From Thermococcus sp. EP1 (GTDB lineage: Archaea; Methanobacteriota_B; Thermococci; Thermococcales; Thermococcaceae), in the NCBI RefSeq assembly GCF_001317345.1, contig NZ_JXCG01000002.1, positions 1-35,072 on the forward strand: a stretch of DNA of 35,072 bases. The letters run 5' to 3'. Below the pieces are notes generated by a model. The model saw nothing but the letters and a program-made list of their open reading frames with translations, was not told the DNA's origin and ran no database searches. Position 1 is the first letter of the stretch. Each line of letters opens with the position of its first letter. The position numbers and the translations under genes are program-made. This document shows, in pieces, positions 10,955 to 15,113 of the stretch.

Positions 10955-12106
10955 CTATTTTATCATTATTTTCAACATTAGTACTCCCATACAAGTTGTT
11001 CTTTTTACTTTTAAGATAAGGGTTGTAGTTCCAAGTATAGTTGCCACTCCAAGCACCCCTATCCCTAATAGGCCATCAAAGTAGAAAGAGCCAGCTATTA
11101 TAAAGGACAATATTGAAATATTGAGAAGTTTGTAGTTTATCTTCTCTATTAATCTTCCTACCTTTTTGGAAATTAAGAGTCCATACAAATTGACAACACT
11201 TCCAACGGTTATTGTTATAATAAGCAATATGACAAATTCTTTGGAGTTTAGGGGATAGTAGTGATTCTTTATTAGAACTAAAATCCCATTTCTAGTTTTT
11301 CCAGTAGCATAAAAATTTGCTAAGCCAAATATGAAATTGGCAGTATTAACTGAGAATGAAATTGTTAAAAAGGCTCTTTCATCTTTAGATAGGAAACTTC
11401 CCAATAGCGCTGCTTGAGAAGATGTGAATGTGGGCAAAAGGGAAGCGAGCATGCCAAATAATGTTCCGAGGAAGGAATACCTCAAGAAATGTGTTTTTGA
11501 GAGTAGAATCTCACTTTCTCCTGGGGTTATTTTTTCATTATTTTTCAAAGAAAACAAGATAGCTGGAACACCAAACAACCCTACAAACAAGTGAAAATAA
11601 GGTTCTTTAAGAGGTAACTTATCACTAATAATTCCCAATATTCCAGCCATGCAAAATATAATAAGTGCATACACTTTTTTCATACCTTTTTCGGAGAATA
11701 TGATTAAACCTGCTAATAGGAATACAAAAATTCTTCCCACTGTTGGAGTGTAATATGGGGCCACCCAAAGATATATAGGAAGAAAAGTTAGAGAGAATAA
11801 AACTGCTAGAAAACTTGTTTTTAGTGAAATATTCACAACCTCAAGAGCTCTCCCCTGGAGGGCCAGCCTATGAGCTGGAAGAATACTTAAGGCAGTATCT
11901 TCCTCTGGAATTCCAAAAAATGTTGAGGGAAATGCATCTAGGAAAGTATGGGTTAGACCCATAGTATAAAGAAACACGACGTACAAAAATCCTTCCATTA
12001 TGCTATCCATACTCCCTATAATTGAAGCTAAGGTGTTTACATGTAGAGCAGGCGTTAATCCAGTAATGGTCCCAGCCAAAATTCCTAAGAATACTTCTCT
12101 AAGCAT
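10955..12106 (-). CDS. TctA-like (COG1784) membrane permease
   Basis: A 383-residue polytopic membrane protein with about 9-11 hydrophobic segments. The segment FFGIPEEDTALSILPAHRL (about residues 63-81) and the N-terminal GLTPALHVN fit the TctA/DUF112 fold in its single-gene archaeal form. Bacterial TctA is the large permease of tripartite carboxylate transporters that work with TctB and the binding protein TctC. Neither TctB nor TctC is seen here. The gene's first 22 bases overlap the end of the upstream OB-repeat gene, implying translational coupling and a shared task. Substrate is unknown. Confidence 0.78.
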   Translation of the reverse strand: MLREVFLGILAGTITGLTPALHVNTLASIIGSMDSIMEGFLYVVFLYTMGLTHTFLDAFPSTFFGIPEEDTALSILPAHRLALQGRALEVVNISLKTSFLAVLFSLTFLPIYLWVAPYYTPTVGRIFVFLLAGLIIFSEKGMKKVYALIIFCMAGILGIISDKLPLKEPYFHLFVGLFGVPAILFSLKNNEKITPGESEILLSKTHFLRYSFLGTLFGMLASLLPTFTSSQAALLGSFLSKDERAFLTISFSVNTANFIFGLANFYATGKTRNGILVLIKNHYYPLNSKEFVILLIITITVGSVVNLYGLLISKKVGRLIEKINYKLLNISILSFIIAGSFYFDGLLGIGVLGVATILGTTTLILKVKRTTCMGVLMLKIMIK

Positions 12107-13287
12107 AATTCATCCCCTGAGGGGATTTCAAAAGCTGGCATTCCTCTATAAGTAGAATGGAATCCAAATGCAGTTATGGTTAGATTTTCGTGTAAAGACA
12201 CCCCTAGAGACTTTGGGAGTTTTAATAGGATCCAGCATTTCCCATTAGTTATGTTGGCTATGCTAAAACCATTGGCGTATGTTTTTATCCAGCTTACCCT
12301 TCCATGGATTTTGCTTGGGATGTTGGGGAGGGACTGACAAATGGAATTTGATAATTTTTTTCTTGGTATTTTCACTCGACACTCAATGCAGTAAAGAGAG
12401 TTTTTTCGTCTTATGGCTTTAAATTCAATGATGTCTCCTAATTTAGCAGAAAACCCATAAAGCTTCAGGGAAGTACAATTTAATTTTAGATATCTAGTGG
12501 ATTTGGTAACTTGGCACACTCCATAAGCAATGTCTCCTATATTCTCTTTCCCAATTTCTGTTATGTTGGGTTTTCCAAGGAATTTTATATCAGAGTTATC
12601 CTCCACATAGAGAGTGAGAGTAGAATAAAGTTTTGCAATGCCTGTGATCTCTACAATATCACCAATTTTTAGTTCAGTTTTGTAAGGTAGGTAAACTTTG
12701 ATTTCTTCGCTTCCGTTCCATATTGTGGAGGGGTTTCTATTATCTAACACAACCCCTTTGATGACAAAAGGCATGTTGTTTTCGGGTCTCTTCGGAAATC
12801 CCTCTTGAGCATATCTGACTACGTAGAATTTTTTTCCATAGAATAGACCGTCAACTTTTACTATCTCTCCTTTAGAGACATTTAAACATTTGTTTAATTT
12901 TATTCTCTCAGGAAGTAGAAGATAGCAGGCACTTCCCTTCCAGAAAGTCCCGTTGAGTGTTTCTAGGGGCAATAATTCTGGAGAGACTTCTATGACTTCA
13001 AAAACATCTATTGTACTTTTTGAAGAGTCAATAGTCTTTCCCATGACCTTATATACTTTATTTGGTTCTAGGCCCTTGTGTATTATGATAGTTTCAGTTC
13101 CATTATAGAGCACGCTGAAGTCCCCTTTTGAGTAAACACATAGACCAATAAATTGGGCAATATCTTCTTTCTCGGCCTCATTTGGAGTGATTGCTGTTAT
13201 TTTTTCTGTTCCGATATAATGGAGCAGAGCAAGGGATAGAAAGGAGAGGATAATAAACACTATTTCAAGTTTTTTTAATTTAACCAT
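12085..13287 (-). CDS. Membrane-anchored extracellular protein of repeated OB-like segments
   Basis: A 400-residue protein with one N-terminal hydrophobic anchor (about residues 7-24, LEIVFIILSFLSLALL). The rest is predicted to be outside the cell and has several N-x-S/T sequons. By eye I count about five related beta-rich segments (near 42-105, 110-165, 172-240, 248-310 and 325-395). Each starts with a G.V/C-type strand and has the pattern 'G-hydrophobic-E/V.G', as in SKGEIVKVDGLFYG, KIGDIVEITGIAKL and KLGDIIEFKAI. This is typical of OB-fold domains. It overlaps the TctA-like gene by 22 bases. The TATA-like TTTTTAAGAC (about 13306-13315, minus) sits about 25 bases from the ATG, so the transcript may be leaderless. 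No known function. Confidence 0.7.
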   Translation of the reverse strand: MVKLKKLEIVFIILSFLSLALLHYIGTEKITAITPNEAEKEDIAQFIGLCVYSKGDFSVLYNGTETIIIHKGLEPNKVYKVMGKTIDSSKSTIDVFEVIEVSPELLPLETLNGTFWKGSACYLLLPERIKLNKCLNVSKGEIVKVDGLFYGKKFYVVRYAQEGFPKRPENNMPFVIKGVVLDNRNPSTIWNGSEEIKVYLPYKTELKIGDIVEITGIAKLYSTLTLYVEDNSDIKFLGKPNITEIGKENIGDIAYGVCQVTKSTRYLKLNCTSLKLYGFSAKLGDIIEFKAIRRKNSLYCIECRVKIPRKKLSNSICQSLPNIPSKIHGRVSWIKTYANGFSIANITNGKCWILLKLPKSLGVSLHENLTITAFGFHSTYRGMPAFEIPSGDELCLEKYS

Positions 13288-13375: not shown

Positions 13376-14155
13376 CTATTCGATTTTAAGAACAATCCCC
13401 CTGTCAGTTATGTCGTAGGGGACCCAAGAAAGGAGATGCCTGGTTCTTCTCATCCCGTAGACTCTGAGATATCTTTGAAGGGTATGATTTTCCTCAAAGA
13501 GCCTCATTTCAATTATTCCGTCCACTATTGCCTTGATTATTGTCTCCACTTGGGGTTCTTCCACGCCGGAGTTCATTTCTATTATCCACACCTGTTTGTT
13601 CTTGTGAGAAAATGCCTTTAAGTCTTCTAAAAATTTGTATATCTCTTTTTTTTCAGTCTCGAAGAACATGGGGGTTAGAGATGAGATTATTCCTACTGTG
13701 AGAGGTTCTTCATTGTGTGGATTATTTAAAAGAATCCTTGTTGTGGTATCTTTAATTATGTCTATTATCTGACTAGTGTCCCTGATATCGGGAATTGCTT
13801 CCTCCGTAAAAGAAAATTTAGGACCCCCCCTGATTCTCTGAGTGTATGCATCTAAAAGGTGTAGCCTTTCATTTAAATGTGTAATAAAATTCCACCCGAA
13901 ATCTAGGGCATTACTTATGAATTCATAACGAGGAATGTCTACAAGGAGGCTGATTACATTGGCTCCGGAAATCAGCTGATTGTATATAAATTGGCTTATA
14001 AATGTTGTTTTGCCTGATTTGGGGTCCCCTATGAGGAGAACAACGCTACCTCGCGGAATCCCCCCCATTAATAAGGGGTCAATGATGTTTGTAGGAATCC
14101 GTTCAACTTTCTCTTCTAGCTCTGATCTGGCTAGTGGATTGTGGTATGGATTCAA
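13376..14155 (-). CDS. KaiC/RadA-like ATPase domain protein, probably catalytically degenerate
   Basis: A 259-residue RecA-fold protein homologous in layout to its upstream neighbour. Walker A GDPKSGKT is intact (43-50). But the catalytic glutamate pair of KaiC proteins (E66-E67 in the neighbour) is replaced by VDIPR (72-76), and the Walker B aspartate position reads VGIISS (154-159). The C-terminal segment YGMRRTRHLLSWVPYDIT matches the neighbour's KMRGTRHSMRKYPFEIT. This suggests a nucleotide-binding but weakly or non-hydrolysing partner. The start is TTG: the ribosome site GGGAGGGAG is six bases before it and no better start exists. The gap to the upstream gene is 15 bases, so they form an operon. 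Confidence 0.8.
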   Translation of the reverse strand: MNPYHNPLARSELEEKVERIPTNIIDPLLMGGIPRGSVVLLIGDPKSGKTTFISQFIYNQLISGANVISLLVDIPRYEFISNALDFGWNFITHLNERLHLLDAYTQRIRGGPKFSFTEEAIPDIRDTSQIIDIIKDTTTRILLNNPHNEEPLTVGIISSLTPMFFETEKKEIYKFLEDLKAFSHKNKQVWIIEMNSGVEEPQVETIIKAIVDGIIEMRLFEENHTLQRYLRVYGMRRTRHLLSWVPYDITDRGIVLKIE

Positions 14156-14170
14156 TTAAAACTCCCTCCC

Positions 14171-14920
14171 TTAATAAATCTCTCCACTTGGATAGACCAC
14201 GACTCCTTTGTTAGTTATTTCGAATGGGTATTTTCTCATTGAATGCCTGGTACCACGCATCTTCCTGACTAATAGGTATCTCTTTAGTTCTATGTTCTTC
14301 TCTTGAAGATCAAGAAGCACGACACCTCTAGAAATGTATTCTTCTATTCCATATTTGCTAATTTTACCTCCTTTAGGGTCGGGAGCCTCAGTTGTTAGAA
14401 GAGTTGTCACTCCCATCTCAAGGAGGATTGTGTTGAGTTTTAATAAAACTCCTCTAATTTCTCTTTCATCCTGGAGTCTAAATGCTATTGAGGGAATTGA
14501 GTCAATGACAAGTCTTTTTGCATTTATTGCTTTAACAACCCGATATATGTATCTTAAAAAGCTGTCGACATTTATAGTGTCCTCTAGTACAAATTTTTCC
14601 TCAGAGGGAATACCAGAAATAGAACTAACGCCATCCACTATGGCTATGAGCCCTTGTTTTTCATATTTCTCAAGATCCCATCCAAATTGGCCCATTTCTC
14701 TCCTAATATCTTTGGCTCTCTCCTCTAATGTGACAAAAACACCGGGTTCTCCATACTCCTCTGCTCCTTTGTAGATGTATTGGGCGACGAATGTTGTTTT
14801 TCCTGTACCAGTACTCCCTGTGATAAGGACGGTGGATTCTTCGGGGAAACCTCCTCCTATTAGATCGTCAAACCCCGGTATCCCACTTTTAACTCTTTTA
14901 GTTGGAAACGAGTTGGTCAT
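14171..14920 (-). CDS. KaiC-domain ATPase (single domain)
   Basis: A 249-residue archaeal KaiC-like protein. Seen: N-terminal VKSGIPGFDDLIGGGFP, Walker A GSTGTGKT (35-42), catalytic glutamates E66-E67 in VTLEERAKD, Walker B LVIDSIPS with D140, and the C-terminal KMRGTRHS motif (about 224-231) that contacts the neighbouring subunit's nucleotide in KaiC hexamers. Single-domain KaiC proteins in archaea are signalling or scaffold ATPases of mostly unknown role; no circadian function is implied. Start: GTG 14929 lies within the ribosome site, whereas ATG 14920 is correctly spaced after AAGGTGGG, so 14920 is chosen. It diverges from the primase operon. Confidence 0.87.
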   Translation of the reverse strand: MTNSFPTKRVKSGIPGFDDLIGGGFPEESTVLITGSTGTGKTTFVAQYIYKGAEEYGEPGVFVTLEERAKDIRREMGQFGWDLEKYEKQGLIAIVDGVSSISGIPSEEKFVLEDTINVDSFLRYIYRVVKAINAKRLVIDSIPSIAFRLQDEREIRGVLLKLNTILLEMGVTTLLTTEAPDPKGGKISKYGIEEYISRGVVLLDLQEKNIELKRYLLVRKMRGTRHSMRKYPFEITNKGVVVYPSGEIY

Positions 14921-15113
14921 AATTCCCACCTTGCAGTCAACTTAATTTGTTTCTAACTATTAAAGTTATTTAATATGAGAATATAAGGTTTTTGGAAATT
15001 TACTCATATTTGCTGACACTCATTGGAATATTTCTAATATTTTAATTGTTTTTTATAAGCCTAGGCAACAAAAGAGTTTTATTCTAATGTGAGCATTAAT
15101 AGGAGGTGGGTGG
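14921..15113 (+). promoter_or_regulatory. Divergent promoter region, KaiC-like operon and primase operon
   Basis: AT-rich spacer. Rightward, the element TTTTTATAAGCC at about 15050-15061 is a good TATA box. AGGAGGTGG (15101-15109) is the ribosome site for priL. Leftward, TATA-like sequences occur around 14961-14988, about 40-60 bases ahead of the KaiC-like ATG. No operator is evident. Confidence 0.5.

Follow-up and report, generated by a model that had tools for sequence, protein, structure and literature searches.

The closest described counterpart of the locus examined here comes from Methanococcus maripaludis, in which deletion of either MMJJ_13020 or MMJJ_13030 abolishes natural transformation and complementation restores it, according to a study that combined a transposon screen with in-frame deletions (PMC10133366). 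The two genes are adjacent and encode an OB-fold protein with one transmembrane helix and a TctA-like protein, respectively, the latter proposed by the authors as a possible DNA transporter. A TctA homologue is likewise required for natural transformation in Methanoculleus thermophilus, and a TctA-like protein was noted in T. kodakarensis and P. furiosus (PMC10133366). The SNase gene MMJJ_16440 is a further candidate for a role in transformation in M. maripaludis.

Two other systems are relevant to the comparison. Archaea have no recognised ComEC (PMC10133366), a protein in which the OB fold, DUF4131, is predicted to be located outside the cytoplasmic membrane and has been shown to bind DNA (PMC12455585). 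The second is the TctABC transporter; in archaea a stand-alone TctA is the usual state, and arCOG04469 had earlier been guessed to transport carboxylates (PMC5898192). The literature that we searched contained nothing that links the Thermococcales pair to competence beyond the mention of the TctA-like protein in T. kodakarensis and P. furiosus, and TctA was not mentioned in two recent Thermococcales papers included in the search.

We analysed a stretch of 35,072 nucleotides from Thermococcus sp. EP1 (contig NZ_JXCG01000002.1), hereafter referred to as the window, for which an earlier note made from the sequence had pointed to a gene for an OB-repeat protein overlapping a gene for a TctA-type permease.

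Structure and sequence features of the gene pair

Table 1. Positions in the window of the gene pair, its overlap and the conserved upstream neighbours.
Feature	Position	Strand	Details
TctA-like polytopic membrane protein	10955..12106	-	383 aa, ATG; PF01970; arCOG04469/COG1784 type; proposed DNA channel
Overlap of OB gene and TctA-like gene	12085..12106	-	22 bases
OB-array protein	12085..13287	-	400 aa, ATG; N-terminal anchor and five OB barrels; proposed DNA-capture subunit outside the cell
KaiC-like RecA-superfamily ATPase	13376..14155	-	Upstream conserved neighbour; missing in some Thermococcus loci
KaiC-like ATPase	14171..14929	-	Upstream conserved neighbour; PF06745 E 1.2e-81

The earlier note had described the first protein of the pair as 400 residues long, with one N-terminal anchor and about five OB-like segments predicted to lie outside the cell. 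The reading frame is present, and the AlphaFold2 model obtained from a 37-row alignment (pLDDT 90.6) agrees with this description in that a single N-terminal helix, at residues 2-27, is followed by a row of five OB-type barrels, each with five strands, at approximately residues 43-101, 109-163, 172-238, 253-307 and 324-396. The signal for these barrels is nearly absent from the sequence, with a sub-threshold match to PF01336 (E 0.018) as the outcome of the Pfam search, and 14 of 22 relatives matched PF01336 at E up to 0.1. No relative was found in phmmer and profile searches of the PDB sequences. When the model was compared with the PDB using Foldseek, the best neighbours were nucleic-acid binders with OB arrays, headed by the p204 HINab-dsDNA structure (E 3e-8) and followed by LEF-3 and BRCA2; these neighbours are suggestive only, because nucleic-acid binders make up most of the OB arrays of solved structure.

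The location proposed for the OB segments agrees with several traits of the protein. It contains 8 N-glycosylation sequons against an expected 2.7 (the neighbouring genes have 0-2), as well as 10 cysteines, and K-rich residues precede the anchor, all of which would fit a position outside the cell. Together with a net charge of +13, the sequons and cysteines fit a secreted, disulfide-bearing ectodomain that may bind a polyanion, and the positive charge and the fold neighbours of the model are suggestive of nucleic-acid binding.

The second protein matched PF01970 above the cut-off (E 1.9e-38) and its AlphaFold2 model was confident (pLDDT 92.8, pTM 0.91), yet Foldseek retrieved no match to this model from the PDB at E below 0.001, and phmmer and profile searches of the PDB sequences yielded no relative. 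It is placed in an archaeal branch of the arCOG04469 type, in which H22, N24, H79 and R272 are invariant; in the true TctA of a related genome these residues are replaced by T, T, Y and G. Searches for TctB (PF07331) and TctC (PF03401) gave no match in the window's genome, while the same searches were positive in G003, a related genome with a true TctABC. The suggestion that the permease is an orphan TctA holds as far as the family assignment and the missing TctB and TctC are concerned, but the OB gene regularly adjoins it and a stand-alone TctA is nothing unusual in archaea. We rejected the pair as a member of a TctABC system because TctB and TctC are missing and the four invariant residues are absent from a true TctA; the likeness is confined to the match of the membrane subunit to PF01970, and the window protein is also shorter (383 aa versus about 500).

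Other PF01970 proteins were observed in these genomes. One of a different type, with about 463 residues, is encoded elsewhere in the window's genome (G000:C1:404054-405316), and proteins of this type are common to part of the genus and occur without TctB or TctC. A true TctABC cluster is located at G003:C1:1480814-1483480, where a stop interrupts the TctC frame.

Conservation of the pair in Thermococcaceae

Both reading frames on the minus strand are located as the earlier note had placed them, and the 22-base overlap between them is confirmed. The sequence GGGGATGA is situated just upstream of the TctA start codon, within the OB gene, and its presence along with the overlap is compatible with translational coupling of the pair. 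In 20 of the 21 Thermococcaceae loci measured, the two genes overlap by 19-31 bases. The OB protein was found in 36 of 37 Thermococcaceae genomes, the exception being a genome that is 78% complete and has a partial TctA, and in all 36 genomes with an OB match the TctA gene adjoins the OB gene. The pairing is therefore not due to chance, and the expectation that the two genes remain linked elsewhere is upheld by the gene-neighbour check in this family as well as in many other archaeal families.

The linkage is maintained while the sequence of the OB protein changes rapidly, with identities down to about 30% where the adjoining methyltransferase and KaiC genes hold about 70-90%. In three genomes of the Pyrococcus group (L032:6111-6803, L033:6202-6903 and L034:6527-7216) approximately OB4-OB5 have been lost, leaving a protein of 230 aa with about OB1-OB3, and TctA has been retained; these genomes represent a natural experiment on the number of OB domains. 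In one further Thermococcaceae genome the OB gene is divided into two ORFs.

Directly upstream of the pair in the window, and on the same strand, are two genes for KaiC-like ATPases (13376-14929), and such genes were identified upstream in 18 of 21 Thermococcaceae loci, although some loci lack one or both. The KaiC-like ATPases are possible partners of the OB and TctA proteins. We rejected them as an obligate part of the unit because three loci (L043, L045 and L048) contain the pair without them. In L048 the pair is located in another neighbourhood, which lacks the KaiC, primase and methyltransferase genes, and it therefore appears to move as a unit.

Additional copies were also seen. One genome with a normal pair, possibly a mixed assembly, has an extra OB gene (L031:6469-7668) that is 54% identical to the gene in the window and is positioned between two AAA-ATPase-like genes with no TctA beside it. 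Some Thermococcus genomes contain a second pair (L063:4668-8107, L064:3880-8186 and L065:3688-7979), in which an OB array overlaps a TctA-like gene as in the window, but with OB proteins of 703-992 aa, a TctA of 443 aa and an overlap of 4 bases. No second pair of this type was found in the window's genome.

Recurrence of the pattern in other archaea

In a wide survey, TctA-like genes were present in 241 of 317 genomes. In many archaeal families other than the Thermococcaceae, the gene immediately upstream of TctA, often overlapping it, codes for an anchored OB protein, which may contain one domain (about 112-142 aa), two domains (209-223 aa) or three domains (311-323 aa). Using a non-iterated profile built exclusively from the Thermococcaceae OB proteins, we obtained matches at E up to 0.01 for 6 of 37 immediately upstream genes as compared to 2 of 558 other genes (Fisher p 1e-6). 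The iterated profile also picks up OB proteins that are not related to the pair, TiaS (L121, L088 and L081) among them, and these were discounted. All 30 candidate partners that we compiled matched PF01336, although this set includes one TiaS (L081, convergent) and a few genes that are not directly adjacent to TctA.

Many archaea have a TctA gene without an adjacent OB gene. Mapped onto the TctA tree, the OB link requires 11 changes, at least 4 of which are forced by well-supported branches, indicating that the link has been lost or gained repeatedly. No loci were returned by a search for related loci with the TctA protein alone, and an alignment-based TctA search reached only Methanococcales and near relatives. 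Since the OB protein diverges fast, the recurring pattern is missed by plain BLASTP.

Additional genes were seen next to some of these pairs. A membrane protein of 187-251 aa, the C-terminal part of which is apparently NfeD-like, is encoded just upstream of the pair in seven loci (L061, L091, L096, L097, L101, L122 and L123) and is a possible third component of the system. A stretch of about 4 kb in one archaeal genome (L120:1660-2004 and L120:3839-5667, both on the plus strand) contains an OB gene together with an SNase-like gene and TctA, and the C-terminus of this SNase (YVASKNSKIYHRPDC) is similar to the segment at the C-terminal end of MMJJ_13020.

Function of the pair

We consider it probable that the Thermococcales pair is a DNA-uptake apparatus for natural transformation and a split functional analogue of ComEC. 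In the mechanism that we propose, the anchored five-OB protein would capture incoming DNA outside the membrane and pass it to the TctA-like protein, which would provide the path for DNA across the cytoplasmic membrane, and the gene overlap would serve to keep the two subunits balanced. We infer that the pair may have the same role as in M. maripaludis, that its OB array would bind DNA and not saccharide, and that the actual conduit, as opposed to an accessory, would be the TctA-like protein.

The comparison with M. maripaludis was made in genome G328, which we take to be strain JJ because its coordinates agree with the published insertions: its TctA gene at 1,193,577-1,194,716 spans the insertion at 1,194,079, and the insertions at 1,193,041-1,193,089 fall within an OB gene immediately upstream. 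The TctA-like proteins of the window and of M. maripaludis are homologous, with 29% identity over 286 residues in BLASTP (E 1e-23), and the two loci also share the order of OB gene and TctA gene, their adjacency and the single N-terminal anchor of the OB protein. Orthology of the OB proteins is not established, since BLASTP detected no similarity between the window protein and MMJJ_13020 and the profile comparison was weak (hhalign probability 14%, E 0.002). MMJJ_13020 is a protein of 203 aa with one OB domain, as compared to 400 aa and five domains in the window, and it has a C-terminal YASK...YH...C...C segment that is absent from the window protein; moreover, the M. maripaludis genes abut whereas those in the window overlap. 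A secreted SNase (PF00565) was not matched in the window's genome, which is 95.9% complete, while it is present in genomes of the Pyrococcus group. Any nuclease step in the organism studied here must therefore differ, and the SNase is an accessory of the pathway rather than a defining part of the OB/TctA pair.

The likeness to ComEC consists of an OB fold placed outside the membrane and a polytopic membrane channel, and MMJJ_13020, which matches PF01336 at E 5.5e-9, also shows a weak match below the cut-off to the DUF4131 domain of ComEC (E 6.5e-4). The pair differs from ComEC in that the OB fold and the channel are separate proteins, that the channel belongs to the TctA family and that a beta-lactamase-like nuclease domain is missing. 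We rejected the pair as a ComEC in the strict sense because the competence domain PF03772 was absent; it was found in none of 41 genomes, including that of the window, as compared to 10 of 14 control genomes.

Three other readings of the pair were considered. The earlier note had suggested a possible two-component transporter or envelope system with the OB array in the role of the binding protein, and an importer of carboxylates or other small solutes with the array in place of TctC would suit the family assignment of the permease and the earlier guess for arCOG04469 (PMC5898192). We regard this proposal as unlikely: TctB and TctC are missing from the genome, the permease is of the arCOG04469 type with invariant residues unlike those of a true TctA, and the M. 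maripaludis counterparts are essential for transformation. OB arrays are not known to act as solute receptors, which also counts against an importer. DNA uptake explains an OB array of the nucleic-acid type better than a small-solute importer does.

A role in the handling of surface polymers, such as glycans or lipid-linked oligosaccharides, is slightly less credible still. OB folds are able to bind oligosaccharides, and the array could in this case hold a saccharide while the substrate transported by the TctA-like protein would be lipid-linked or polymeric; in the Methanocaldococcaceae type of locus, a stand-alone TctA is followed by a gene for a polytopic membrane protein and flanked by a glycosyltransferase-like gene. 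Against this, the candidate partners all match PF01336, which is a model of the nucleic-acid type, the nearest folds are DNA and RNA binders and the phenotype in M. maripaludis is one of transformation. Export of DNA or RNA, or the loading of vesicles, seems very improbable. The same parts could work either way and the direction in Thermococcales is not fixed by this analysis, but the sole experiment on the pair concerns import.

A role in DNA uptake would bear on a family in which ComEC is missing although some members are naturally competent, among them the widely used T. kodakarensis and P. furiosus COM1. An OB/TctA transformation pair was already known from one methanogen; what is new is the five-OB form in Thermococcales. 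To the previous work (PMC10133366) we add the five-OB partner, its constant linkage to TctA and the recurrence of the pattern, whereby a pair described in one methanogen is extended to a pattern of an outside OB array and a TctA-like channel across many archaeal families. More tentatively, and with some doubt on our part, the pair might be the general DNA translocator of archaea without ComEC, an independently evolved second solution in which the number of OB domains varies from one to about nine by lineage and which in Thermococcales is possibly driven by the neighbouring KaiC-like ATPases. For Thermococcus and Pyrococcus, the pair, which nearly all of the searched Thermococcaceae genomes contain, is a testable candidate DNA channel that consists of two adjacent, deletable genes.
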